Shown here piece after piece: positions 2,273-17,435 of a DNA stretch of 64,000 bases. Numbering within the stretch: position 1 is the first letter of the stretch; each line of letters begins with the position of its first letter. A program made the position numbers and the translations under genes. The notes under the pieces were generated by a model that was not told the origin of the DNA, made no database searches, and worked only from the letters and a program-made list of their open reading frames with translations. This DNA comes from Paracoccus lutimaris. Lineage in GTDB: Bacteria; Pseudomonadota; Alphaproteobacteria; Rhodobacterales; Rhodobacteraceae. Location of the stretch: positions 372,001-436,000 of the forward strand of contig NZ_QPJL01000001.1 of the NCBI RefSeq assembly GCF_003337565.1, written 5' to 3'.

Positions 2273-3112
2273 ATGTCGATTCTGACCATCCGCAATCTGA
2301 CCGTGCGCTTTGCCACCTCGACCGGCAGCTTTACCGCCGTGGACGGCATCGACGTCCGCGTCGACAAGGGCGAGGTTCTGGCCATCGTGGGCGAATCCGG
2401 CTCGGGCAAGTCGGTCTCGATGCTGGCGGCGATGGGGCTTTTGCCCGACACCGCCATCGTCACCGCCGATGAGATGACCTTTGACGGCCAGAACCTGCTG
2501 GCCATGACCCCGCGAGAACGCCGCCGGATCATCGGGCGCGAGATCACGATGATCTTTCAGGAACCCATCGCCTCGCTGAACCCGTCTTTCACGGCCGGCT
2601 ACCAGATCGAGGAGGTCCTGCGCTTCAACGCCGGGCTTTCGCGCAAAGCGGCCCGCGCCCGCGCCATCGAGCTGTTCAATCAGGTCGGCCTGCCCGACCC
2701 CGAGGGCAAGCTGAAATCCTATCCGCACCAGATGTCGGGCGGGCAGTCGCAGCGGGTGATGATCGCCATGGCGATTGCCACCAATCCGCGCCTGCTGATC
2801 GCCGATGAGCCGACAACGGCGTTGGACGTGACCATCCAGAAGCAGATCCTCGACCTGCTGATACGGTTGCAAGAGGAAACTGGCATGGCGCTGATCCTGA
2901 TCACCCATGACATGGGCGTGGTGGCCGAAACCGCCGACCGCGTGCAGGTCCAGTACAAGGGCAAGAAGATGGAAGAGGCCGACGTGCTGAGCCTGTTCGA
3001 GAACCCGAAGAACCCCTATACCCGCGCGCTGCTTTCGGCCCTGCCCGAAAACGCCACCGGCGACCGGCTGCCCACCGTGGCCAGCTTTCTGGACAGCGAG
3101 GTATCGGCATGA
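2273..3112 (+). CDS. dppD: Dipeptide ABC transporter ATP-binding protein DppD
   Basis: 279-residue ATPase with Walker A (GESGSGKS), Q-loop FQEP, signature MSGGQSQR, Walker B LLIADEP and the H-loop ITHD. It powers the DppBC permease. It is shorter than the usual 320-330 residues: the oligopeptide-transporter C-terminal extension stops soon after [12 protein letters not shown], so the Cys-rich tail seen in many relatives is missing. It follows dppC after 3 bp and overlaps dppF by 4 bp (ATGA). Confidence 0.92.
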
Positions 3113-3954
3113 GCGTGGTCGTCGAAGGCCGGAACATCCTGCGCGATTACCATATCGCGGGTTCGCTGACGCGGCCGGCAAAGACCGTTCATGCGGTCAA
3201 GGGCATCAGCTTTACGGTGGAACGCGGCAAGACGCTGGCCATCGTGGGCGAAAGCGGCTCGGGCAAGTCGACGCTGGCGCGGATCGTGGCACTGATCGAT
3301 CAGGCCAGCGGCGGTGAATTGCTGATCGAAGGCAAGCCCATCGATATCGGCAAGGAAAAGCTGACCCGCGAGATGCGCTCCAAGGTGCAGATGGTGTTCC
3401 AGAACCCTTACGGTTCGCTGAACCCGCGCCAGAAGATCGGCGACGTGCTGATGGAGCCATTGCTTCTGAACACCGACACGCCCGCCAGCGAACGCCGCGA
3501 CCGGGCGCGCGAGATGCTGGTCAAGGTCGGGTTGCCGGCCGAGCATTTCAACCGCTATCCGCATATGTTCTCGGGCGGGCAGCGCCAGCGCATCGCCATC
3601 GCCCGCGCCCTGATGCTGAACCCGACGCTGCTGGTTCTGGACGAGCCGGTCTCGGCGCTGGATCTGTCGGTGCAGGCACAGGTGCTGAACCTGCTGGCGG
3701 ATCTGCAGGAAGAGTTCAATCTGGCCTATGTCTTCATCAGCCATGACCTGTCGGTGGTGCGCTATATCGCCGATGACGTGTTGGTGATGAACCGGGGCGA
3801 GGCAGTCGAACAGGGCACGCGCGAGGCGGTCTTTGCCGACCCCAAGCACCCCTATACGCGCGAACTTTTCGCCGCGACCCCGATCACCGATGTCGAGGCG
3901 ATCCGCGCGCGCGTTGCCCGCCGCGCGGCGATGCGCGCCGCCGCCCGCGCCTGA
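3109..3954 (+). CDS. dppF: Dipeptide ABC transporter ATP-binding protein DppF
   Basis: 281-residue second ATPase of the importer: Walker [11 protein letters not shown]-loop FQNPYGSLNPRQ, signature FSGGQRQR, Walker B LLVLDEP, then SALDLSVQAQVLNLL and the ISHD switch. The C-terminus is cut short after HPYTRELFAATP, as in its partner, ending in an Arg/Ala-rich tail. The start overlaps the dppD stop by 4 bp. It is the last gene of the operon, with a strong terminator 10 bp downstream. Confidence 0.92.
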   Translation: MSVVVEGRNILRDYHIAGSLTRPAKTVHAVKGISFTVERGKTLAIVGESGSGKSTLARIVALIDQASGGELLIEGKPIDIGKEKLTREMRSKVQMVFQNPYGSLNPRQKIGDVLMEPLLLNTDTPASERRDRAREMLVKVGLPAEHFNRYPHMFSGGQRQRIAIARALMLNPTLLVLDEPVSALDLSVQAQVLNLLADLQEEFNLAYVFISHDLSVVRYIADDVLVMNRGEAVEQGTREAVFADPKHPYTRELFAATPITDVEAIRARVARRAAMRAAARA

Positions 3955-3964
3955 GAAAACTTGC

Positions 3965-3999
3965 AAGGGCGGGCCGTCTTGCGTTAGACGCCCGCCTTT
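3965..3999 (+). terminator. Rho-independent terminator of the dpp operon
   Basis: The arms AAGGGCGGGCCGTCT and AGACGCCCGCCTTT pair along about 14 bp with one bulged C and a 6-nt loop (TGCGTT), ending in TTT. It lies 10 bp past the dppF stop and 20 bp before the next gene, separating the two transcription units. Confidence 0.75.
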
Positions 4000-4018
4000 G
4001 CACCCCAACGAGGCCGCC

Positions 4019-5077
4019 GTGCCCCAGCGTCCCCCAATGCGTCCCCTGACCAGTGTTTCCGCCATGATCGAGGCGGGCCTTGCCCCCGGCGATGACTCCG
4101 CAGTGCTGGAAGAGGTCGCCTCGGAATTCCGCATCCGCATGACGCCGGCGATGCAGGCCGCCGCCCGGCCCGGCACCGCCGCTGATCCCATCGCCGCGCA
4201 ATTCGTCCCCGATGCGCGCGAGCTGGACACCCGCCCCGAGGAACTGCTGGACCCGATCGGCGACGACATCCACAGCCCCGTCCCCGGCCTGACGCATCGC
4301 TATCCCGACCGGGTGATCCTGCACATCACCAAGACCTGCGAGGTCTATTGCCGCTTCTGCTTCCGCCGCGAGGTGGTGGGCGAGGACGGCACCCTGCCCG
4401 AAGACGACCTGACCGCGGCGCTGGACTATATCGCCCGCACCCCCGCCATCCATGAAGTGATCCTGACCGGCGGCGACCCCTTGGTGCTGTCGCCCCGCCG
4501 CATCGCCGCCGTGATGGCCCGGCTGACAAAAATCCCGCATCTGGATGTGGTGCGCATCCATACCCGCATTCCGGTGGTCGCCCCCGACCGCATCGACGCG
4601 GCCATGGTCGCGGCACTGCGCACTGAAAGGCTGGCGGTCTGGCTGGTCCTGCACACGAACCACGCCAATGAACTGACGCCCGATGCCTGCGCCGCCTTGG
4701 CGCGGTTGGCCGATGCGGGCATTCCCCTGCTGTCCCAAAGCGTGCTGTTGCGCGGCGTCAATGCCGATGCCGACACATTGGCCGACCTGTTCCGCGCGCT
4801 GATCCGCAACCGCGTCAAACCCTATTACCTGCATCATTGCGATCTGGCGCGCGGCACCAGCCATTTCCGCACCTCGATCGCCGAGGGGCAGGCGATCATG
4901 GCCGCCCTGCGCGGGCGCATTTCGGGCACCTGCCTGCCGCAATATGTCCTTGATCTGCCGGGCGGCCATGGCAAGGTGCCCTTGGGGCCGGGTTATCTGG
5001 ATGAAACCGCGCCGGGGCGCTGGCTGATCCGCGACTGGCAGGGCACTCCCCACGAATACCGCGATCCCGGGGCCTGA
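4019..5077 (+). CDS. Lysine 2,3-aminomutase-family radical SAM protein (EpmB/KamA-like)
   Basis: 352-residue radical SAM/PLP enzyme if the GTG at 4019 is used; it has GAGG about 5 bp upstream, whereas the ATG at 4037 has no ribosome binding site. The 4Fe-4S cluster motif CX3CX2C is at C107, C111 and C114 (KTCEVYCRFCF). It is followed by HEVILTGGDPL and, near the end, the PLP-lysine region LPGGHGKVPLGPGY. The length fits EpmB, which isomerises lysine to beta-lysine for modification of elongation factor P, better than the longer catabolic KamA. No EF-P or EpmA gene is nearby, so the substrate is unproven. It is preceded by a terminator and is probably monocistronic. Confidence 0.8.
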   Translation: MPQRPPMRPLTSVSAMIEAGLAPGDDSAVLEEVASEFRIRMTPAMQAAARPGTAADPIAAQFVPDARELDTRPEELLDPIGDDIHSPVPGLTHRYPDRVILHITKTCEVYCRFCFRREVVGEDGTLPEDDLTAALDYIARTPAIHEVILTGGDPLVLSPRRIAAVMARLTKIPHLDVVRIHTRIPVVAPDRIDAAMVAALRTERLAVWLVLHTNHANELTPDACAALARLADAGIPLLSQSVLLRGVNADADTLADLFRALIRNRVKPYYLHHCDLARGTSHFRTSIAEGQAIMAALRGRISGTCLPQYVLDLPGGHGKVPLGPGYLDETAPGRWLIRDWQGTPHEYRDPGA

Positions 5078-5101: not shown

Positions 5102-8100
5102 ATGCCTGCCGATGCGGGTGATCGCGGCTTGCACGGCGGGAACAGAGAGATTAGCACTCTCCCGTCCCGAGCAGCGAGAAATACATTGGCCACAAAACGT
5201 TCCAGAGCCCCGAAAAAGGTGAAAACCACCCGTCAGTGCCTGCTGGTTCTGGGGATGCATCGTTCAGGAACCAGTGTGGTGACACAGCTTCTCAGCATTG
5301 CCGGCGCCAAGCTTCCGAGCGAGCTGCTGGGTGCGAATCCGGGCAATGAATTCGGCCATTTCGAATCGACATGGATGATTGATCGCGACGACAGGCTGCT
5401 GCGCGATCTGGGCAAGGCCTGGGACGAATGGTCGCGGATCGACCTTGAGGCCGCGCCGGGCGATGTGATCGCCACCTATGTCTCGGATCTGCGGCGCTTC
5501 GTGCAGAAGGAACTGGGCGACGAGGCGCTGCTGGTCCTGAAAGAACCGCGCACCTGCCGCCTGCTGCCGCCGATCCTGCGCGCGCTGCGCGCCGATGATA
5601 TCGAGCCGCTGATCGTCGTTCCCTATCGCAACCCGCTTGAGGTCGCCGGCTCGCTTCTGGCCCGCGACGGCATCAGCCTGCGCGAGGGGGTGCTGCTGTG
5701 GTTGCGCCACAGCATCGATGCCGAACGCGACAGCCGCGGCTGCAAGCGCAGCTTCATCGCCTATGAGGCGCTGTTTGACGACTGGCGCGGGAACTTCCAG
5801 CGCATGTCCAAGGATCTGGGCATCGACTGGCCGCGCAATCTGGACCGGATCGCCCCCGAGGCGGACAAGGCCATCGTCCGCGGCGCGCGCCACAACAAAT
5901 GGACCTCCGAGGACCTTGAGAAGACCGCATATGCGCGCGGTCTGGCGCTGCGCGTGCTGGAGGCCTGCGAGAGCTTCGCCATAGATCCCGCCGATGCCGG
6001 GGCCATGGCCACGATGGATGCCGTCTCGGCGCAGTTCGAGGAGCTGGTCGAACTGACCCAGCCCGCGATCCGCGACACCCGCGCCGCGCTCGCCGCCGCC
6101 AGCACCGAGGCCGAGACGCAAAAGCAGGAAAATGCCCGCCTGATCGACCGCAACACCGATCTGCAGCACAACCTTCAGGGCATCTGGGAGCTGCATAACA
6201 TCGTTTCTGAGCTAAACCAGAAGAACGATCTGTTCATCAGCGATCTCAGATCGCAGGTCGCCGAGCGCCAGAACATGCTTGTCGCCGCGAATGAGGCGCG
6301 CAGCGGGCTTGAGCTTCGCGTGGCAAGCAGCGAAACCGCCCGCAGCGCGGCCGAGGCCGAGGCCACGCGGCTTGGCGAGACGCTCACCGAACTGGGCCGC
6401 GATTTCGAGGCGGCCACGGCAAAGCTGACCCGGACCGAGCAGGACCTGCTGGAGCTTCGCACCGACGCCGCCGATCTTGCCACGGTCGCGGCGGATCGCC
6501 AGGCCGAGGCCGAGCGACTGCGCGAAGCCCTGCGCGCCAAGCAGATCGAGTCGGGCCATTACGCCCAGGGCGTCAAGGACCGTCTGGCCGAAATCGACAA
6601 TCTGACCAACATGCTGCGCGAGGTCTATGGCAGCAGTTCGTGGCGGATCACCCGGCCGCTGCGCTTCTTCGGGCGCGCGGTCCGCAAGGTGCTGCGCCTG
6701 CTTCGCGGCATCGCCCGCGGCATCGCGCTGGCCATCTGGCGCCTGCTGCCGATCTCGACCAGCAAACGCGTCCAGTGGAAGAACCGGCTCTTTTCCTCGT
6801 CGCTGGGGCGCCGGATGTTCGGCTCGACCGCGCTTTACCAGCAATGGCAGGCCGTTCAGGTCGTGCGCTTCGAAATGCCCGCGCCGGCGCAGGCCAAGAG
6901 CGCCAGGCCCGCGCAATCAGCCGACCGTTTCCGCTCGGCCACGCAATCCGCGACCGAAAGCCGCGCCTCGGCGGCCGGCAACCGGGTCGAGGTGGACACG
7001 GCCAATCATTTCGTGCCCCGCCGGATCCAGACCGATCTGACCGATCCGATGGCGCGGCTGATCGCCTTTTACCTGCCGCAGTTCCACGCCATTCCCGAAA
7101 ACGACGCATGGTGGGGCAAGGGCTTTACCGAATGGACCAATGTGCGGCCCGCCAAGCCGATGTTTCCCGGGCATTACCAGCCGCATGAACCGCTGGACCT
7201 GGGCTATTACGACCTGACCGACATCGAGGCGCAAAAGCGCCAGATCGAGCTGGCCAAGCTTTATGGCCTCGGCGGCTTCTGTTTTTACTGGTACTGGTTC
7301 GGCGGCAAGCGGCTGCTGGAAAAGCCGGTCGAGAACTGGCTGAACAACCCGGAACTGGATTTCCCCTTCTGTGTCTGCTGGGCCAATGAGAACTGGACCC
7401 GGCGCTGGGACGGCAAGGATTCCGAAATCATCATGGGCCAGAAACATTCGCCCGCGGATGATCTGGCCTTCATCGCCGAGCTGGGCCCCTATCTGCGCGA
7501 CCCGCGCTATATCCGCATCAATGGCAAGCCCCTGGTGCTGGTCTATCGCCCGAGCGCCCTGCCCGATGCGGCCGCGACCGCCGGGCGCTGGCGCAACTGG
7601 TGCCGGCAGAACGGCATCGGCGAGATCTATCTGGCCTATACCCAGTCCTTCGAACTGGCCGATCCCAGGGTCTATGGTTTCGACGCCGCGATCGAGTTTC
7701 CGCCGAACAACGCCTCGCCCACGGTGCTGACCGACCGGATCGAGGGGCTGGACCCGGAATTCAACGGCATCGTCTATGACTGGAATTTCTATGTCGATCG
7801 CAGCCGCGACTATCCGCAGCCAGATTACCGGCTGATCCGCTCGGTCTGCCCGGCCTGGGACAATACCGCGCGGCGCAAGAAGGGCGGCGCGATCTTTCTC
7901 AACAACACGCCCGGCGAATATGCGACCTGGCTTGGCAATGCGATCACCCGGACGCTGGCCGACGCGCCGACCCCGGATGAGCGCATCATCTTCTGCAACG
8001 CCTGGAACGAATGGGCCGAGGGCGCGCATCTCGAGCCCGACACCCGTTTTGGCTATGCGTGGCTCGAAACCACCCGCGATGCGCTGGACCCGCATGCCAC

Positions 8101-11100
8101 GCCCAGGCATGTCACGCTGATCGGCCATGACGCGCATCCGCATGGCGCGCAGCTTTTGCTGCTGAATCTGGCGCGCAGCTACCGGCAGGCCGGGCTGACG
8201 GTCAAGATCGTGCTGCTGGATGGCGGCTCGCTGGTCAAGGACTATGCCGAAGTGGCGCAGGTCGCGCAGCTGCCCGATCTGGCCAGCAAGCGCGACGAGG
8301 CGCTGCGGCTGCTGCGCGGACTACGCTCGGAACATGGCGAGGTCGCGGTGGTCAACACCACCGTTTCGGGCAGCGTCGCGCCCTTGCTGCAAGAAGCCGG
8401 CTACAGCCCGGTGGCGCTGATCCACGAGATGCGCTCGGTCTATGCGCAGATGGACCTCAAGCGGCAGATGCAGGCCCTGGCGGTGGCTGACGCGCCGCTG
8501 GTCTTTCCGGCCCGCATCGTGCAGGCGCAGTTTGAAGAGGCGCTGGGACAGGCCGTGACCCGTCCCGCGCTGCGCCCGCAGGGTCTTTATCTGCGCCCGG
8601 CGCCCCGCGACCCGGTCGCCCGCGACGCGCTACGCGCCGAATATGCGATCCCGGCCGGCGCGCCGCTGGTTCTGGGCGTGGGCTATATCGATCACCGCAA
8701 GGGCGCCGATCTGTTCGTGCAGGCCCTGGCCGAAATGCGCAAGGCCGGCATCCCCGCCGAGGCGATCTGGATCGGCCATGCCGACCGTGACGAGCTGCCG
8801 CGTGTCGCGGCGCTGGCGAAACAGCTGGGCGTCGCGGATCACGTCCGCTTCCCCGGCCGCCAGCCCGATCCGGCGCGCTTCTATGCGGCCGCCGATCTCT
8901 TCCTGCTGACCTCGCGCGAGGACCCCTATCCTTCGGTCGTGCTGGAGGCGATGGCGGCAGAGCTGCCAGTGGTCATGTTCGCGGGCGTCACCGGCTCCGA
9001 GGATCTGGCCGCGCGCGGTCTGGCGGTGGCCGTCACCGCCGAAAATCCGCAGGCCATGGCCGAGGCCGCCGCAAATCTGCTTGTCGATGCCCCCGCGCGC
9101 GAGGCGATGGTAGCTGCCGCCGCCCGCCATATCGCCGACGAGACCAGCTTTACCGAATATGCCTTTGACCTTCTGAAGCTGGGCGGCAAGCCGGTGCCGC
9201 GGATCTCGGTCATCGTTCCCAGCTACAACTATCAGGACTATATCCGCGACCGCATCGAAAGCGTCGCGGCACAGGACATGCCGATCCTGGAGATCATCGT
9301 TCTGGACGATTGCTCGACCGACCGCAGCCCCGAGATCATCGCCGAGATCGCCGCATCCAGCCCGGCACCGATCCGCTTCGTGCCGGGACGGGCCAATTCC
9401 GGCAATGTCTTCAAGCAATGGCAAAAGGGGCTGGAGCTGGCGCGCGGCGATTACATCTGGATCGCCGAGGCCGACGATCTGGCCGCGCCGGACTTCCTGT
9501 CCACGGTCATGCGCGGCTTCGAGGCGCCGGGCGTGGTGCTGTCCTATTGTGAATCGGCGCAGATCGACGGCAAGGGCAACCCGCTGGCCGCCGATTACCG
9601 CTATTACACCAATGGCGTCGCACCCGGAAAATGGGATCGCAATTACCTCGCCTCGGGCCAGGCCGAGATCGAACAGGCGCTGTTCCTGAAAAACACCATC
9701 CTGAACGCTTCGGCGGTGGTGATGCGGACGGACGCGCTGCGCGCGGTCTTTGCCGCGCATCGCGAGGAAATCGAGGGGCTGCGCTTTGCCGGCGACTGGG
9801 CGGTTTATCTGAACCTTCTGGCCAAGGGCGACATCGCCTATTCGGCGCTGTCGAAGAACTATCACCGCCGCCATCAGTCCAGCGTCACCATCTCGAATTT
9901 CAATGCCCTCCAACTGGACGAGATCATCGCCATGCAGCGCAAGGCGCGCGCGCTGATCGGGGCGGACCCGCAGCGCGACCACCGCAGCGCCGCCTATATC
10001 GCCGAGCTCGAGCAGCAATTCGGCGTACAGCGCGAAACCGCGCCCGAAACCGAGAGCCGGAAAGGAAAGGCGACCCCCATGACGGAAACCACGCCCGTGA
10101 ACCGGCCCGATATCTTCATCGTCGGCACGATGAAGGGCGGGACCACGGTCCTGCATGAATTCATGGCCTTGCACCCGGAAATTCATGCCGGGACCAAGAA
10201 GGAAATCCATTACTTCACATTGTTCGAGACCAAGGGGCTTGACTGGTATCACGACCATTTCAAGGACCTGCCCGCCGGCCAGCATTATCTTGATGCCAGC
10301 CCCACCTATTTCGACATGGCCACCAGCATGGGCCTGCCGGCCCGGATCGAGAGCTACAACCCCGACGCGCGGGTCATCATGCTGGCCCGCGATCCGGTCG
10401 AGCGCGCGGTCTCGCATTTCAACCATTTCCGCAAGGTCAACAAAATCCCGGCGCTGCAGGAAATGTCCGCCGACGAATTCTTCTCGCGGGATCTGGAACT
10501 GGCGCTTGGCCAGATCAACCCCATCGATTTCTATCTGATGCAATGCATCGATTTCAGCCTCTATTTCCGCAAGGCCCACAACTACAGGAAGGTTTTCGGC
10601 GACCGCTTCATGGTCGTGGACAATGACGACCTGTCGCAGCAGCCGCAGGAAACCATGGAGCGGGTCTTCCGGCATGTCGGCGTCGATCCGATCCGCAGCG
10701 AAGGGTTCAACCAGCGCAAATACAGCCATCAGGGCGACAAGAGCGGCCTGCCGCTTGAGCCGGCAACGATCGCCAGGCTGAACAAGATCTTCGGCGCCAA
10801 TTACAATTCCTTCTGCAACCTGACCGGGCTGCGGAACCGCAATGCCGATCTGGTCAAGGCGGCTGCGGCAGCCAAACCCGCCCCGGTCGCCATGCCCACC
10901 GGCAGCTCCGACCATGGCGGCGGCGCAAGGATGCAAGAGCTCGCCGCCAAAAGCGCCCCGGACACCAGCGTCCGGACCGAGAATGGCGTGCTGGTCGGCA
11001 AGGATGACTGGCTGTTTCTCTGGGACGGCTCGAACGAGGTACATCGCTATTACACCGAGCCGGATTACTTCACCGACAAGGACGTGCAGGACTGGGTCGA

Positions 11101-11857
11101 TCTGCTGACCGCGCGCCGGGACCGGATCGAGGCGCTTGGCGCGACCTACCGGCATATGACGGTGCCCGACAAGCTGTCGCTGCTGCCCGACATGGCGGGC
11201 GTGCCGCTGCCGAATTTCGACCGCCATCCGGCAAGCCTCATCGCCGCGCGCCTGCCGGGCGACGGGCTGAATATCGACATCCTTTCTGATCTGCGCGAGG
11301 CCGGGAAAGAGGCGCCGGTCTTCTACCGGACCGACAGCCACTGGAATTCGTTTGGCTGCCAGGTGGCCTATCGCCGGCTCTGCGCCATCCTGGGGGCCAC
11401 GCCCCGCGACTTCTCGGACCGCAAGAGCGGCGGCAAGCTGATGTCCATGGATCTGGGCCAGAAGCTTGCGCCGCCGCTTCAGGAAGAGGCGCGCTTCACC
11501 ATCGTCAAGCGCGATGCCCAACGCGTCTCCGAAAACGAGCCGGTGCGCTATAACGAGCAGACCGGCTTTCGCGAGGGCAAGCCGCGTTTCGTCGGCTGCC
11601 ATGTCCATCTGCGCAATGACAGCCCCGACGCGCGCCCCGAGACCCTGCTGCTCTTTGGCGATTCCTACAGCGAGTTCCGTCCGCATCTGCTGACGGCCAT
11701 GCTGGCCGAAACCTATCGCGATGTGCATTTCGTCTGGTCCGCCAATCTGGATTTCGACCTGATCGAGCGGCTCCGTCCGCAGATCGTCATCTCACAGATC
11801 GCCGAGCGCTTCATGCGCACCCTGCCCACGGACGAGTTCCAGGTCTCGCTCGACTGA
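5102..11857 (+). CDS. Giant multidomain glycan protein: sulfotransferase / coiled coil / GH99-like / GT4 / GT2 / sulfotransferase / SGNH
   Basis: One open frame of 2251 codons. Domains in order: sulfotransferase (about 45-310; PAPS-loop GMHRSGT at 51-57); coiled coil (about 310-505) ending in SSSWRITRPLRFFGR; WbsX/GH99-like domain (about 650-995; FYLPQFH, CNAWNEWAEG); GT4 glycosyltransferase (about 1000-1360; EDPYPSVVLEA from 1273); GT2 glycosyltransferase (about 1367-1640; LDDCSTD, EADD at 1456-1459); second sulfotransferase (from M1660; GTMKGGTT at 1675-1682); AlgX/AlgJ-like SGNH domain (about 1950-2251; D2078-S-H2080, GDSYS with S2188). It likely builds, sulfates and acetylates a surface glycan. 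No signal peptide is visible. The first about 30 codons use AGA/ACA/CGA unlike the rest, so TTG 5186 or GTG 5219 are alternative starts. An internal ATG at 10079 (M1660) has a strong ribosome binding site, so the frame may be a fusion of two genes. Confidence 0.75.
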   Translation: MPADAGDRGLHGGNREISTLPSRAARNTLATKRSRAPKKVKTTRQCLLVLGMHRSGTSVVTQLLSIAGAKLPSELLGANPGNEFGHFESTWMIDRDDRLLRDLGKAWDEWSRIDLEAAPGDVIATYVSDLRRFVQKELGDEALLVLKEPRTCRLLPPILRALRADDIEPLIVVPYRNPLEVAGSLLARDGISLREGVLLWLRHSIDAERDSRGCKRSFIAYEALFDDWRGNFQRMSKDLGIDWPRNLDRIAPEADKAIVRGARHNKWTSEDLEKTAYARGLALRVLEACESFAIDPADAGAMATMDAVSAQFEELVELTQPAIRDTRAALAAASTEAETQKQENARLIDRNTDLQHNLQGIWELHNIVSELNQKNDLFISDLRSQVAERQNMLVAANEARSGLELRVASSETARSAAEAEATRLGETLTELGRDFEAATAKLTRTEQDLLELRTDAADLATVAADRQAEAERLREALRAKQIESGHYAQGVKDRLAEIDNLTNMLREVYGSSSWRITRPLRFFGRAVRKVLRLLRGIARGIALAIWRLLPISTSKRVQWKNRLFSSSLGRRMFGSTALYQQWQAVQVVRFEMPAPAQAKSARPAQSADRFRSATQSATESRASAAGNRVEVDTANHFVPRRIQTDLTDPMARLIAFYLPQFHAIPENDAWWGKGFTEWTNVRPAKPMFPGHYQPHEPLDLGYYDLTDIEAQKRQIELAKLYGLGGFCFYWYWFGGKRLLEKPVENWLNNPELDFPFCVCWANENWTRRWDGKDSEIIMGQKHSPADDLAFIAELGPYLRDPRYIRINGKPLVLVYRPSALPDAAATAGRWRNWCRQNGIGEIYLAYTQSFELADPRVYGFDAAIEFPPNNASPTVLTDRIEGLDPEFNGIVYDWNFYVDRSRDYPQPDYRLIRSVCPAWDNTARRKKGGAIFLNNTPGEYATWLGNAITRTLADAPTPDERIIFCNAWNEWAEGAHLEPDTRFGYAWLETTRDALDPHATPRHVTLIGHDAHPHGAQLLLLNLARSYRQAGLTVKIVLLDGGSLVKDYAEVAQVAQLPDLASKRDEALRLLRGLRSEHGEVAVVNTTVSGSVAPLLQEAGYSPVALIHEMRSVYAQMDLKRQMQALAVADAPLVFPARIVQAQFEEALGQAVTRPALRPQGLYLRPAPRDPVARDALRAEYAIPAGAPLVLGVGYIDHRKGADLFVQALAEMRKAGIPAEAIWIGHADRDELPRVAALAKQLGVADHVRFPGRQPDPARFYAAADLFLLTSREDPYPSVVLEAMAAELPVVMFAGVTGSEDLAARGLAVAVTAENPQAMAEAAANLLVDAPAREAMVAAAARHIADETSFTEYAFDLLKLGGKPVPRISVIVPSYNYQDYIRDRIESVAAQDMPILEIIVLDDCSTDRSPEIIAEIAASSPAPIRFVPGRANSGNVFKQWQKGLELARGDYIWIAEADDLAAPDFLSTVMRGFEAPGVVLSYCESAQIDGKGNPLAADYRYYTNGVAPGKWDRNYLASGQAEIEQALFLKNTILNASAVVMRTDALRAVFAAHREEIEGLRFAGDWAVYLNLLAKGDIAYSALSKNYHRRHQSSVTISNFNALQLDEIIAMQRKARALIGADPQRDHRSAAYIAELEQQFGVQRETAPETESRKGKATPMTETTPVNRPDIFIVGTMKGGTTVLHEFMALHPEIHAGTKKEIHYFTLFETKGLDWYHDHFKDLPAGQHYLDASPTYFDMATSMGLPARIESYNPDARVIMLARDPVERAVSHFNHFRKVNKIPALQEMSADEFFSRDLELALGQINPIDFYLMQCIDFSLYFRKAHNYRKVFGDRFMVVDNDDLSQQPQETMERVFRHVGVDPIRSEGFNQRKYSHQGDKSGLPLEPATIARLNKIFGANYNSFCNLTGLRNRNADLVKAAAAAKPAPVAMPTGSSDHGGGARMQELAAKSAPDTSVRTENGVLVGKDDWLFLWDGSNEVHRYYTEPDYFTDKDVQDWVDLLTARRDRIEALGATYRHMTVPDKLSLLPDMAGVPLPNFDRHPASLIAARLPGDGLNIDILSDLREAGKEAPVFYRTDSHWNSFGCQVAYRRLCAILGATPRDFSDRKSGGKLMSMDLGQKLAPPLQEEARFTIVKRDAQRVSENEPVRYNEQTGFREGKPRFVGCHVHLRNDSPDARPETLLLFGDSYSEFRPHLLTAMLAETYRDVHFVWSANLDFDLIERLRPQIVISQIAERFMRTLPTDEFQVSLD

Positions 11858-12068: not shown

Positions 12069-12734
12069 ATGTCCGCTCGCCCTTTCCTGTCGGGGGTGGC
12101 GCCTTTCGGACGGGCGCCGGTCCCTGCCGCGCCGCAACTGGCGGCACCGATCCTGTCCGAAGCCTTTGGCACCCGGCCTCTGGACGGGGCGGCGCCCGGA
12201 TTCGTGCGTGCCGCCCTGCCGCCGGGGCGCATCCTCTGGGCGCAGGACCGGCTGAGCCGGATCGAGACCGGCGCCCCCTTCCTGCCCGGCATGGGCCGCG
12301 AGATGCTGCGGCTGGACCTTGTGCGCGCGGCGGACGTGCTGAGCGCGCTCGAGGACGGGCTGGCCAGTCCTGCCCTGGCCGCCGTGGTCGGCGAGATCCA
12401 TGGCAGCCCCCGCGCGCTGGATTTCACCGCCAGCCGCCGCCTTGCCCTGCGCGCCGAGACGGCGGGCATTCCCTGCTGGCTGATCCGCCATGCTGCCCGC
12501 CCGGATGCCAGCGCGGCGCGGATGCGCTGGCGGCTGACCGCCCTGTCCTCGGCCCCCGATCCGGACGATCCGCAGGCGCCGGGGGATCCGCGCTGGCGAG
12601 CCGAGCTGTTCCGGGCCCGCGACGTGCGCCCCGCCATCTGGGAGGCACGCCATGACCGGGCGGCGGATCGTCTCGATCTGGTTGCCGCATCTGGCGATCG
12701 AGAGCTGGCAGCGCCGCGCCGCCGCGCGGGGTGA
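12069..12734 (+). CDS. imuA: ImuA, RecA-like translesion mutagenesis protein
   Basis: 221-residue protein of the ImuA (SulA/RecA-like) family, recognised from GRILWAQDRLSRIETG, LPGMGREMLRLDLVRAAD and the surrounding gene order. Family knowledge: ImuA supports ImuB and DnaE2 in error-prone lesion bypass and lacks clear nucleotide-binding motifs. It starts 14 bp after an SOS box. It overlaps imuB by 83 bp in a different frame, so its last about 27 residues (Arg/Ala-rich) are encoded inside imuB. This is a longer overlap than the 1-4 bp seen elsewhere in the window. Confidence 0.85.
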   Translation: MSARPFLSGVAPFGRAPVPAAPQLAAPILSEAFGTRPLDGAAPGFVRAALPPGRILWAQDRLSRIETGAPFLPGMGREMLRLDLVRAADVLSALEDGLASPALAAVVGEIHGSPRALDFTASRRLALRAETAGIPCWLIRHAARPDASAARMRWRLTALSSAPDPDDPQAPGDPRWRAELFRARDVRPAIWEARHDRAADRLDLVAASGDRELAAPRRRAG

Positions 12735-14175
12735 TCCCTGGCCCGAAGAGGCACCGCTGGCCCTGGCCACGCCCGGCCCGCATGGCCCGGTGATCCATGC
12801 CGCGAACCGCGCCGCCCTTGCAGCCGGGGCGCGGCTTCGGGCACGCGTCACCGATATCCGCGCCATCTGCCCCGATCTGCGAGTCACGGATGCCGAGCCG
12901 GCGGGCGATGCGGCATTGCTGTCGCGGCTGGCCTTCTGGGCGCGGCGCTGGGGGCCTTACAGCGCGCCGGATGGCGATGACGGCATCGTGCTGGACACGA
13001 CCGGGGCCGCGCATCTTTTCGGCGGCGAAGCCGGGATGCTTGCCGATATCCAGACCCGCCTGGCGCTTGCCGGCCATGCCGCGCGGCTGGCGCTGGCGCC
13101 GACGCGTGGCGCGGCATGGGCCATGGCGCGGCTGGGGCCGGAACGCGCGATCTGCTCCGGCGCGCCCTTGCCCGCGCTGGCGCCCCTGCCGGTCGCGGGG
13201 CTGCGGCTTTCGGACGAGACCCTGCTGCTGCTGCGCCGGCTGGGGCTGAAGACCATCGGCGATCTGGCGGCGATCCCGCGCCTGTCGCTGATGCGCCGCT
13301 TTGCCCGCATGATCCCGGCCGACAACCCGCTTCTGCGGCTGGATCAGGCGCTGGGGCATCTGGCCGAACCGCTGGACGCACCCGAACCCGAACCCGAATT
13401 TCTGGCCGAGGCGCGGCTGGCCGAGCCGGTGATGGACCCGACGGACTGGCTGCCCGGGCTGATCGGCGATCTTTGCGCCCGGATGGCGGCGGCAGATCGC
13501 GGCTGCCGGCGGCTTTGTCTTTCGGTCTTCCGCGTCGATGGCGAGCGGCGCGACATCCGCGCCGCCATGGCCGCCCCCTCGCGCGAGGCCGGGCATCTTC
13601 TGCGGCTTTTCGACGGCAAGCTCGAGCGGCTGGACCCCGGCTATGGCTTTGACCTGATCCGGCTGAGCGCCGAGGCGGTCGAGCCGCTGGCACAGGCCCA
13701 GCCCGGTCTTGACGGCAGCCGCGCCGAGGCACTGGAGCTGGCGCGGCTGGTAGACCGGCTGACGGCGCGGTTCGGCGCCCATGCCCTCAGCCGTCCCGAG
13801 CCGCAGGAAAGCCATGTCCCCGAACGCGCCGAGACCCCCGCCCCGCCGCTGGCCACCCGGCCCGCGCCGCCGCCACGCCCCGACCGCCCCCTGCGCCTGC
13901 TGACCCCACCCGAGGAAATCCGTGTCCTTTACGCCATCCCCGAGGGGCCGCCGGCGCAGTTCATCTGGCGCCGCCAGACCCTGCGCGTCGCCCGCCATGC
14001 CGGGCCGGAACGCATCGCGCCCGAATGGTGGCGCGACCGGCCCGGCACCCGGCTGCGCGATTATTTCCGCGTCGAGGACCCCAGCGGGCTGCGGCTCTGG
14101 ATCTATCGCGAGGGGCTGGTCCATGACGGCCGCGGCGGCGCCCCGCGCTGGTTCCTGCACGGGATCTTTGCCTGA
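12652..14175 (+). CDS. imuB: ImuB, inactive Y-family DNA polymerase homologue
   Basis: 507-residue Y-family polymerase paralogue. The N-terminus RIVSIWLPHLAIE replaces the catalytic DxD strand of DinB, and the second acidic motif reads VLDTTGAAHLFGG, so it is expected to be non-catalytic, as known for ImuB. A thumb-like helix-hairpin-helix region (LGLKTIGDLAAIPR) and a long C-terminal extension follow. Known role: a hub that binds the beta clamp, ImuA and DnaE2. The stop and the dnaE2 start share an A (TGATG), so translation is coupled. Confidence 0.9.
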   Translation: MTGRRIVSIWLPHLAIESWQRRAAARGDPWPEEAPLALATPGPHGPVIHAANRAALAAGARLRARVTDIRAICPDLRVTDAEPAGDAALLSRLAFWARRWGPYSAPDGDDGIVLDTTGAAHLFGGEAGMLADIQTRLALAGHAARLALAPTRGAAWAMARLGPERAICSGAPLPALAPLPVAGLRLSDETLLLLRRLGLKTIGDLAAIPRLSLMRRFARMIPADNPLLRLDQALGHLAEPLDAPEPEPEFLAEARLAEPVMDPTDWLPGLIGDLCARMAAADRGCRRLCLSVFRVDGERRDIRAAMAAPSREAGHLLRLFDGKLERLDPGYGFDLIRLSAEAVEPLAQAQPGLDGSRAEALELARLVDRLTARFGAHALSRPEPQESHVPERAETPAPPLATRPAPPPRPDRPLRLLTPPEEIRVLYAIPEGPPAQFIWRRQTLRVARHAGPERIAPEWWRDRPGTRLRDYFRVEDPSGLRLWIYREGLVHDGRGGAPRWFLHGIFA

Positions 14176-17100
14176 TGCCCGACCATCATCCCCGCACCCC
14201 CCTGACCCTGCCCGAGCATCCGGCGCCAAACCCGCGCGCGGAATATGTCGAACTGGCGGTGACCAGCGCCTTCAGCTTTCTGCATGGTGCCTCGCATCCG
14301 CATGAGCTGGCGCTGGCGGCGCAGGCGCTTGGCTATGACGCGCTGGGAATTGCCGACCTGAACAGCCTGGCCGGGGTGGTGCGGCTGCATGCGGCGGCCA
14401 GAAAGCTGGGCCTGCGCCCGCTGATCGGGGCGCGGATCGTGCTCAAGGATGGCACGGCATTTCTGGCCTATCCAACCGATCGCGCGGCTTACGGACGGCT
14501 TACGGCGCTGATCTCAAAAGGGCGACGGCAGGATCTGGATGGCGGTTGGCAGAAAAAGGGCATCTGCGACCTTGGGCTTGATGACCTTGCTGCCCATGCA
14601 GAAGGCTTGCGGCTGATCTGGCTGCCGGGCGAAAATCTGGCGCCCCTGCCCGAGCTTGCCGCCCGCCTGCCCCAGTTGAGCCATGTCGCGGCAAGCTGGC
14701 TTTACCGAGGTGACGACCGGGCACGGATCAACCGTCTGGACCGGGCGGCACGGGCCGCGGGCCTGTCGATTATCGCCATCAATGACGTGCATTACCACAC
14801 CCCCGAACGCCGCCCGCTGCAGGACGTGATGACCTGCATTCGCGAAGGCACGACCATCGCGCGGGCCGGCCTGCGCCTGGCCGCCAATGCCGAGCGGCAC
14901 CTGAAGCCGCCCGCCGAAATGCTGCGCCTCTTTGCCGACTGGCCCCATGCCATCCGCGCCACGCGCCAGATCGCCGATGACTGCCGCTTTTCGCTGGACG
15001 AACTCAGCTATGAATATCCCCGCGAAAGCGTGCCCAGGGGCAGCACGCCCCAGCGCCATCTGACCAGGCTCAGCTGGGAAGGGGCGGCATGGCGCTATCC
15101 GCAAGGCGTGCCCGACAAGGTTGCGGCCACGATCCGGCGAGAGCTCGCGCTGATCCGCCGCAAGAAGATCGCGCAATATTTCCTGACCATCCACCAGATC
15201 GTGCGCTTTGCCGAGGCTCAGGGCATCCTGTATCAGGGGCGCGGCTCGGCGGCGAATTCGGCGGTCTGCTATGTGCTGGGCATCACCCCGGTCGATCCCA
15301 ACACCCATGAGCTGCTGTTCGAGCGCTTCATCAGCGAGGACCGCGACGAGCCCCCCGATATCGATGTCGATTTCGAGCATGAGCGCCGCGAGGAGGTCAT
15401 CCAGCACATCTATGACCGCTATGGCCGCCACCGCGCCGGGCTTTGCGCGACGGTGATCCATTACCGTCCCCGCAGCGCCATCCGCGAGGTGGGCAAGGTC
15501 ATGGGCCTGTCCGAGGATGTCACCTCGGCGCTGGCCGATACCGTCTGGGGCAGCTGGGGCGACAGCATGAAGGCCGCCGATACCGGACAGGCGGGGCTGG
15601 ACATGAGCGATCCGCATCTGGCGCGCACGATCCGGCTGGCGCAGGAAATGATCGGCATGCCGCGGCACCTGTCGCAGCATGTCGGCGGCTTCATCCTGAC
15701 CGAGGGGGCGCTGACCCGGACCGTGCCCATCGGCAATGGCGCCATGGCCGATCGCAGCTTCATCGAATGGGACAAGGACGATATCGACGAGCTGAAGATC
15801 CTCAAGGTCGATGTGCTGGCGCTGGGGATGCTGACCTGCATCCGCAAATGCTTTGAGCTGATCCGCAGCCATTACGGTCCGGCCCTGACGTTGGCCGATA
15901 TCCCGGCCGATTGCCCGGCGACCTATGCCATGCTGCAAAAGGGCGACAGCATCGGCACGTTTCAGGTCGAAAGCCGGGCGCAGATGAACATGCTGCCACG
16001 GCTGCGGCCCAAGGTGTTTTACGATCTGGTCATTCAGGTCGCCATCGTCCGCCCCGGCCCGATCCAGGGCGACATGGTCCATCCCTATCTGCGCCGCCGC
16101 GCGGGCATCGAGACGGTCGATTACCCCTCGCCCCGCGACGGCGATCCCGATGAGCTGAAAAACATCCTGAACCGCACCCTGGGCGTGCCGATCTTTCAGG
16201 AACAGGCGATGAAGATCGCCATGGTCGCCGCGCGCTTTTCCTCGGCCGAGGCGAACATGCTGCGCAAGGCCATGGCCACCTTCCGGTCGCGCGGAACCAT
16301 CGGCCAGCTGGAAAGCCTGATGGTCGGACGCATGGTCGAGCGCGGCTACGAGCCGGAATTCGCGCAGCGCTGCTTTGACCAGATCAAGGGCTTTGGCGAA
16401 TACGGCTTTCCCGAAAGCCATGCGGCGGCATTCGCGCATCTGGCCTATGTCTCGGCCTGGCTGAAATGCCATTATCCGGCCGCCTTCGCAGCGGCGCTGC
16501 TGAACAGCCAGCCGATGGGCTTTTACGCTCCGGCCCAGATCGTGCGGGACGCGCGCGAACATGGCGTGACCGTGCTGCCGGTCGATGTCGGCATCAGCCA
16601 GCGCGACAATACGCTTGAGCCCTGCGACGGCACCTTTGCCCTGCGGCTGGGCCTGCGCCAGATCGAGGGCCTGTCCGGCGCCGCGTCAGCGCGGCTGACG
16701 GATGCGCGCGATGCGCCCTTTGCCGATCTGGCCGATCTGAAATCCCGCGCGCGGCTGGATGCGCGAAGCATCCGGCTGATCGCGGCGGCGGATGCGCTGC
16801 GCTCGCTGGGGCTGGACCGGCGGGCGGGGCTGTGGCAGGCGCGCGCATTGCGCGATGCCCCCGACCTGCCGCTCTTTGGTGCCCGCGACGAAGGCGGCGA
16901 GCCGGCCGTCCCCCTGCCCGCCATGCCGCTTTGCGAACATGTCGCCGCCGATTACCAGACCCTGCGCCTGTCCCTGAAAGCCCATCCCATGCGCTTTCTT
17001 CGCGCCAGCATGAGCGCACAGGGCTATGTCGCGGCGACGGACCTGGCCCGCCTGCCCCAGGCTGCGGCCCTGCGCATGGCCGGGATCGTCCTGATCCGCC

Positions 17101-17435
17101 AACGCCCCGGCAGCGCCAAGGGCGTCTGCTTCGTCACGCTGGAGGATGAGACCGGCGTCGCCAATCTGGTGATCTGGGAAAAGACCTTCCGCGCCTTCCG
17201 CAAGGAGGTCATGTCGGCCCGCCTGCTTGAGGTCAGGGGCCATCTGCAGCGCGCCGAGGGCGTGACCCATATCGTCGCGACCTGGCTTGGCGACCGTTCG
17301 GAGGCGCTGCTGCGCCTTTCGGGCGAGGTGCCCGCGACGCTGCCCGAAGGGAACCGCGCCGCCGGCCTGCCCGCGCCCCGGCGCACGCATCCGCGCCAGG
17401 TCCGCATCCTGCCAAAATCGCGCGACTTCCACTGA
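14175..17435 (+). CDS. dnaE2: Error-prone DNA polymerase DnaE2
   Basis: 1086-residue C-family polymerase. It has an N-terminal PHP domain ([32 protein letters not shown]), the palm with the catalytic acidic motif PPDIDVDF near residues 393-400, the fingers ([13 protein letters not shown] region, [15 protein letters not shown]) and a C-terminal OB fold ([25 protein letters not shown]). The length matches DnaE2 rather than replicative DnaE1 (about 1160-1180). It performs SOS-induced translesion synthesis with ImuA and ImuB. No terminator with a U-tract is evident; a weak hairpin (CAAGCC / GGCTTG) lies at 17480-17498. Confidence 0.93.
   Translation: [1086 protein letters not shown]

Follow-up and report, generated by a model that had tools for sequence, protein, structure and literature searches.

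A cassette-derived fused gene of Paracoccus lutimaris that may encode a capsule-type polysaccharide synthase with attached modifying enzymes

An ABC exporter with a Wzt C-terminal domain is a feature of the polysaccharide systems of the WbbB/WbdD type. The gene analysed here lies in a window, i.e. the whole stretch of 64,000 nucleotides of P. lutimaris DNA under study, and its product recalls proteins of these systems. According to the accessible part of one source, the O12 (WbbB) and O7 (ORF6) proteins of Klebsiella pneumoniae combine a head, a coil and a polymerase on one chain, the polymerase of the WbdD system (Escherichia coli O9a) is a separate protein with an amphipathic helix following the coil of WbdD, and an ABC-exported capsule is described as devoid of a chain-terminating residue (PMC11231755). 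In the accessible part of a second source, an O-antigen cluster of the ABC type contains a WbbB and, next to it, a sulfotransferase-domain gene of its own (PMC4483657). The P. lutimaris protein has the module order ST1–coiled coil–basic helix–WbsX (GH99-like)–GT4–GT2–ST2–SGNH, where ST1 and ST2 are sulfotransferases, and the characteristic motifs are retained (Table 1). The gene is real and encodes an apparently intact multienzyme, whose origin lies in a gene cassette that recurs elsewhere.

The frame 5102-11857 on the forward strand runs over 2251 codons without a stop, and the codon signal marks these 6.7 kb as a single coding frame, as the initial annotation had claimed. The length of 2251 residues given there probably has to be shortened. 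A TTG at 5186 stands at the equal place in the window, in P. halophilus (G082), in P. shanxieyensis (G032) and in P. laeviglucosivorans (G088), and identity drops off upstream of it; translation therefore probably starts at this TTG, giving a protein of 2223 residues. Over 45 blocks of 150 bases, G+C is highest at codon position 3 in 41, tied with position 1 in two and below position 1 in two, with position-3 values of 0.74-0.92 in 44 blocks and of 0.64 in the first. A chance open reading frame in GC-rich DNA is ruled out by the homology and by this codon signal. An origin from a phage or a plasmid was also rejected: no record in the collections used, which may omit records near the window's genome, has one place covering 80% of the fused protein. 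The gene is flanked upstream by oligopeptide-ABC-transporter-like genes and a lysine-2,3-aminomutase-like gene and downstream by imuB-like and dnaE2-like genes, for which we presume the imu names to be appropriate. The earlier remark that no other export or glycan genes lie nearby agrees with the Pfam scan, which gave no polysaccharide-export or glycan-synthesis match in any other of the 31 window frames scanned, these being a part of the window's genes and including a few that are probably not genes.

Table 1. Features of the fused gene in window coordinates; residue numbers count from the ATG at 5102 (2251-aa frame)
Feature	Residues	Coordinates	Strand	Remarks
Probable whole coding sequence, from the conserved TTG		5186..11857	+	2223 aa; initially annotated ATG at 5102, 28 codons upstream
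ST1, N-terminal PAPS-type sulfotransferase	43-270	5228..5911	+	P-loop GMHRSGTS 51-58
Long coiled-coil-like helices	299-510	5996..6631	+	AF2 helices; composition metric 135 aa
Basic/amphipathic helix starting SSSWRITRPLR	511-575	6632..6826	+	Candidate membrane contact
WbsX/GH99-like domain	653-990	7058..8071	+	N-E-W-A-E 969-973; PF14307, 444 bits (cut-off 25.1)
GT4 glycosyltransferase	1001-1354	8102..9163	+	PF00534, 93 bits at 1174-1341; limits from alignment
GT2 glycosyltransferase	1366-1643	9197..10030	+	PF00535, 96.5 bits; D1402/D1403, E-A-D-D 1456-1459
Junction 1		10059..10082	+	Purine-rich stretch, C5 run 10074-10078, ATGA (M1660)
ST2, heparan-type PAPS sulfotransferase	1668-1910	10103..10831	+	PF00685, 73.7 bits (cut-off 22)
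Junction 2, linker		10903..10941	+	May contain a relic of ST', a sulfotransferase-like domain no longer present
SGNH/AlgX-AlgJ-PatB-like acyltransferase	1963-2251	10988..11854	+	PF16822, 60 bits (cut-off 26.5)

The initial annotation had recognised two sulfotransferases, two glycosyltransferases, a GH99-like domain and an SGNH domain in this order. The assignment is borne out by Pfam matches above cut-off for WbsX (653-990, 444 bits), GT4 (1174-1341, 93), GT2 (1369-1548, 97), Sulfotransfer_1 (1669-1862, 74) and ALGX (1963-2102, 60), and in the case of ST1 by its P-loop and its fold. ST1 itself reaches 21.3 bits against Sulfotransfer_3 (PF13469), below the cut-off of 27; the homologous head of locus L074 scores 31.2 bits against this family, and the closest PDB matches of the ST1 model are the tyrosylprotein sulfotransferases TPST1/2 (Foldseek E 5e-6). 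The motifs that had been placed at 51-57, 1675-1682, 2078-2080 and 2186-2190 overlap conserved columns. In ST1, the P-loop, R176 and S184 are conserved in 7 rows (the P-loop in at least 95% of them), in WbsX the same holds for E970 and E973 in at least 95% of 21 rows, and in SGNH for K2024, T2077, D2078, H2080, G2186, D2187 and S2188 in at least 95% of 32 rows. The catalytic roles that we attach to such residues are, those of AlgJ excepted, our assumption. The GH99-like label of WbsX is taken from record annotations, and a phmmer search of this domain against PDB sequences gave no match at E 0.1; GT2 matches chondroitin synthase (E 4e-13).

The model of the ST2-SGNH part has a mean pLDDT of 78.9 and a poorly predicted linker. 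Its ST2 module resembles NDST1 8ccy (VIA Z 23.9, rmsd 2.5, 244 aligned) and 3-OST (Z ~22-23), and its SGNH module a DHHW protein (VIA Z 21.1), PatB1 (20.2), AlgJ (19.4) and AlgX (15.8), absences from the Foldseek or VIA lists being given no weight. Behind ST1, the AF2 model has helices at 271-380 and 395-482, i.e. residues 299-408 and 423-510 of the frame, predicted with moderate confidence. A motif of the SSSWRITRPLR type occurs in the five sulfotransferase-headed WbsX-GT4-GT2 cores of Rhodobacterales, with similar ones in L074 and L057, and the basic helix that it opens may contact the membrane.

The origin of the gene can be followed among its relatives. In a search of 125 Paracoccus genomes with the C-terminal part of the protein, 12 matched at E ≤1e-20, the window's genome included, and four others contain ST2 and SGNH. 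P. shanxieyensis and P. laeviglucosivorans have the modules as three genes, core / ST2 / ST'-SGNH, where ST' is an additional sulfotransferase-like domain that is absent from the window protein, and they have in common with the window the three downstream genes (imuB-dnaE2, 71-79% identity). P. halophilus has two genes, the core and then a fused ST2-ST'-SGNH, and two upstream genes in common with the window (79% and 93% identity); imuB-dnaE2 genes were not found in the 180 kb inspected near its locus. The metagenome-assembled genome G124 has an ST2-ST'-SGNH gene as in P. halophilus on a contig that reaches only the end of the core, and the SGNH tree groups the window with G124 and P. halophilus (support 99/98). 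The other Paracoccus WbsX proteins (G018, G022, G025, G028; frames of 596-764 aa) are differently built. The flanks of the fused gene form a mosaic, the upstream part (3109-5077) being common to P. halophilus and the downstream imuB-dnaE2 part (12069-17435) to P. shanxieyensis and P. laeviglucosivorans.

A 39-bp stretch of the linker in the window gene matches the ST' start of G124, and none of 2000 codon shuffles equals this match. The P. halophilus match falls at the same place with p 0.25, those of P. shanxieyensis and P. laeviglucosivorans are no better than shuffles, and the test for an ST' remnant is thus positive for one of the four relatives only. From the recurrent cassette and the split states of the relatives, it would follow that one gene arose by loss of ST' and of a stop codon: starting from core / ST2 / ST'-SGNH, ST2 would have fused with ST'-SGNH, followed by the in-frame loss of ST' and the disappearance of the stop codon that separated the core from ST2. 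The loss of ST', together with an exporter that is unlinked to the gene, could also be read as the sign of a decaying remnant, left by a cluster whose partners are lost and joined by neutral deletions. This is very improbable for a protein whose motif residues are retained, whose frame is open over 6.7 kb and which has, in every module and against each relative, its highest difference rate at codon position 3. Expressed as the mean of positions 1 and 2 divided by position 3, the contrast between codon positions is weak in the coil and the basic helix (0.54-0.82) and clear in both WbsX and GT2 (0.27-0.40).

The join between core and ST2 in this cassette-derived fusion depends on a single base. 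With one C fewer in the C5 run, the core frame would stop in ATGA, which is the type of overlap found between the orthologous genes of P. laeviglucosivorans; neither the purine-rich stretch nor the second gene's ATG has been lost, and the complete fusion is found at none of the other loci surveyed. One C could be a sequencing error or a polymorphism, in which case the cell would contain two proteins, a core of 1631 aa and an ST2-SGNH chain of 592 aa, encoded by genes overlapping at ATGA, and only ST2 and SGNH would be fused, as in the close relatives. We consider such an absence of the join somewhat unlikely: in G124, the core and ST2 genes are already in frame with each other and separated by a lone TAA, which makes the loss of the stop easy, and a frame audit against two relatives, comprising 85 genes, 85.8 kb and 139 C or G runs of at least 5 after a filter for coding-like ORFs, led to no accepted frame error. 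Seven frame changes were flagged before the filter and two after it, one of which is an upstream antisense artefact, as computed, and the other was judged to be a gene overlap without computation. The audit of 139 runs therefore makes a general homopolymer problem unlikely, and it does not prove the C5 run itself. As for the frameshift or assembly error envisaged in the initial annotation, none was accepted in the 85 genes, and the reading across the C5 run continues to depend on one base.

A wider survey based on the SGNH alignment found 33 loci in genome contigs, or 31 besides the window with each genome counted once (L075 and L076 were left out for weak SGNH scores, and L041, L040, L042 and L022 stand for their genomes in place of L044, L045, L046 and L050). 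Genes on the same strand within 2 kb are called adjacent here, and a core is a WbsX match above 200 or a GT2 match above 150 bits. ST2 is adjacent to SGNH in 13 of the 31 loci, fused to it in 8 and not adjacent in 10; a core is present in 24 loci, 19 of which have it in the same orientation and at most 4 kb away, some of the rest being near contig ends; each of the 21 surveyed ORFs that match WbsX strongly also contains GT4 and GT2. The complete fusion is encountered in none of the 31, is unique among the loci searched and depends on one base. The earlier statement that such activities are usually on separate proteins agrees with this count, and the idea, raised together with it, that relatives might always keep all domains in separate genes proves half right: GT4 and GT2 are joined to WbsX (21/21), ST2 is fused with SGNH in part of the loci (8/31), and the complete chain occurs in none.

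On the SGNH tree, the label 'fused' needs four changes, two of which are forced by well supported branches. The loci are mostly proteobacterial, with single loci of metagenome-assembled genomes assigned to Verrucomicrobiota, Thermodesulfobacteriota and Minisyncoccota. R. viridis (L049) has core, ST' and ST2 in a row, with SGNH on the opposite strand; the laboratory species Rhodobacter capsulatus has an SGNH relative in a locus without core. In two scanned Granulosicoccaceae ORFs (L053:666-2849 and L058:7442-9712), Pfam places a GT61 domain after SGNH on the same chain, and ORFs of comparable size occur in L059, L061, L063 and L064. Repeats of the form FYL..YPDV..AG.DPL.HF...G..EGR.P lie ahead of WbsX in the core ORFs of L056, L062, L070, L072 and L073, without Pfam match in the case of L070. 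Judging by titles and the starts of abstracts, we found no paper describing the domain order of the fused protein, which is weak evidence of absence.

The N-termini of the cores vary and are, where scanned, a sulfotransferase, a methyltransferase (Caulobacter, Aminobacter), TPR or a stretch without Pfam match; on the homologous cores of Aminobacter and Caulobacter, the methyltransferase stands in for the sulfotransferase head. Coil-like stretches of at least 90 aa occur in 8/8 headed and 0/13 other cores of a first set and in four of six further headed proteins (the exceptions are Aminobacter, with 0, and G008, with 73), i.e. in 12 of 14 sulfotransferase- or methyltransferase-headed proteins overall, counts that come from a home-made, composition-based metric chosen with its cut-offs after the sequences had been viewed, from headed proteins that are not phylogenetically independent, from a manual classification of L057, whose record starts within the head, as sulfotransferase-headed and from several 'headless' N-termini, unscanned or without Pfam match, that could be unrecognised heads. 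Among 147 coding-like ORFs of two relatives, four reach 90 on this metric and two of these are this core. In Phaeobacter sp. G2 and P. yeei, a stand-alone ST1-coil gene ends 18 and 21 residues after the start of the SxSW motif and adjoins a glycosyltransferase gene; in Phaeobacter sp. G2 the surrounding stretch also includes genes annotated as ABC transporters, and for P. yeei the annotation lists no polysaccharide exporter. An Aminobacter plasmid carries a core (L108:10744-15189) that is 52% identical over 1048 columns to WbsX-GT4-GT2; its head is a methyltransferase, its coil is short, and the genes behind it are annotated as a methyltransferase, a polysaccharide pyruvyl transferase and a GSCFA-domain protein.

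These heads can be understood in two ways. The arrangement head-coil-polymerase is that of the O12/O7 proteins, and sulfo- and methyltransferase heads are exchanged on homologous cores, both of which argue for ST1 as a chain terminator. There is nevertheless a real chance, short of an even one, that ST1 terminates nothing and sulfates internal residues or another acceptor, the coil merely keeping the enzymes together at the membrane; two headed proteins are indeed without a long coil, the top structural matches of ST1 are tyrosylprotein sulfotransferases, and the known ABC-exported capsule mentioned above has no terminator in the accessible part of its description (PMC11231755).

Export genes accompany ST1 in some relatives. 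In four of 17 Paracoccus genomes (G008, G015, G030, G034), the distance between an ST1 homologue and an ABC2 permease gene is 0.6-1.3 kb, and such close linkage is not seen in the other 13; in the first three of the four, the permease, a KpsE-like protein and the ATPase are homologous to the Kps-like set of P. lutimaris, and the ST1 homologue of G015 is without the canonical P-loop pattern. The P. lutimaris set consists of KpsM/KpsE/ATPase-like genes at C6, below NCBIfam cut-offs, with two Capsule_synth genes (presumably KpsC/S) at a distance of about 70 kb on that contig, and it is unlinked to the fused gene. The Wzt_C domain (PF14524) is absent from this genome and from 10 of 11 others, the unrelated genome G049 being one of the 11. 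An APS kinase is present in the P. lutimaris genome. ABC2-permease genes at G000:C13 were rejected as capsule exporter, their neighbours being aminotransferase, ornithine carbamoyltransferase, MlaC, DUF4175, radical SAM and ABC-transporter genes, with nothing capsule-like.

The SGNH module raises the question of its acyl donor. WcbI is said to be a CoA-binding capsule enzyme. In the accessible parts of two sources, AlgJ has a set of K-T-D-H plus serine, resembling the SGNH residues of the fused protein (PMC4148444), and WssI, an AlgJ homologue, uses acetyl-CoA in vitro (PMC10302187). By hydropathy only, no signal peptide or membrane segment (>1.6) precedes SGNH in 31 close relatives, and the window protein has its maximum, 1.72, within GT4. 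MBOAT (PF03062) is found in none of four Paracoccus genomes, that of P. lutimaris included, and in one of seven genomes overall. AT3 acyltransferase proteins are present in 6/6 genomes, with six in P. lutimaris; the acyl donor of SGNH may therefore be membrane-borne. An acyltransferase-3 gene lies outside the window at G000:C1:368756-369736, 7-8 kb upstream of the fused gene.

The model we propose is that of a cytosolic, probably membrane-associated, capsule-type polysaccharide synthase with attached modifying enzymes, making a sulfated chain and derived by fusion from a gene cassette; its probability is roughly 0.4 in our estimation. GT4 and GT2, together with the GH99-like WbsX, would extend the polymer. 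ST1, held off by the coil of ~200 residues and the basic helix, would sulfate the growing chain, most likely at the distal end when the polymer has become long enough to span the coil, in the way the WbdD/WbbB heads cap O-antigens. ST2 would sulfate the backbone and SGNH would acylate it, perhaps from acetyl-CoA, and the product would leave the cell by the Kps-type ABC exporter of the genome. We infer this mechanism from the module order, the neighbours and precedent, which also lead us to the putative sulfate cap, ruler function and cytosolic acylation and to the proposed polymer identity, acyl donor, exporter, order of fusion events and one chain rather than two. The sulfated, O-acetylated surface glycan first suggested as product would be consistent with the heparan-sulfotransferase-like ST2, the ST1 homologues beside exporter genes in some relatives and the Kps-like genes of P. 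lutimaris, and the 'assembly line' on one chain suggested with it becomes a lineage-specific fusion of a recurrent cassette, with a last join resting on one base of the C5 run. In its most specific form, a sulfotransferase-capped, coil-measured capsule synthase with Kps-type export, backbone sulfation and MBOAT-independent cytosolic acylation by the AlgJ-like domain, all on one polypeptide, the proposal is unlikely as a whole; to our knowledge, no terminator is used by the Kps-type export pathway.

If true, a sulfated bacterial polysaccharide would be polymerised, sulfated, acylated and limited in length by one polypeptide, and the terminator–ruler logic would extend from O-antigens to sulfated capsules. 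The recurrent cassette of core, ST2 and SGNH offers testable genes for heparan-like sulfation in bacteria, and the apparently cytosolic AlgJ-like clade makes the acyl-donor question concrete.

Compared with the known systems, the fused protein shares with WbbB and ORF6 an N-terminal modifying enzyme distal to an extended coil (by AF2 helices and the metric) that is followed by glycosyltransferase modules, with putative capping, ruler and polymerase roles, and there are methyltransferase-headed cores homologous to its own. Unlike WbbB and WbdD, its head is a sulfotransferase and it possesses the additional WbsX, ST2 and SGNH modules; unlike the systems of that type, its genome has Kps-like genes and no Wzt_C exporter. 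It resembles over the whole length of the WbsX-GT4-GT2 core the multi-glycosyltransferase proteins recorded as 'glycoside hydrolase family 99-like domain-containing', such as that of the Aminobacter plasmid, which has a methyltransferase head instead of ST1 and whose chain is without the ST2 and SGNH of the window protein. With AlgJ, AlgX and PatB, it has in common the SGNH fold (VIA Z 15.8-20.2) and a D-x-H before GDS, with the K-T-D-H set as in AlgJ; in contrast to them, its SGNH module has no preceding signal peptide or membrane segment by hydropathy, is fused to PAPS enzymes and belongs to a genome in which no MBOAT gene was found. Finally, ST2 is like the heparan sulfate N- and 3-O-sulfotransferases in its fold (Z ~22-24) and PAPS loop, and unlike them it is bacterial and stands within a glycan-synthesis multienzyme.
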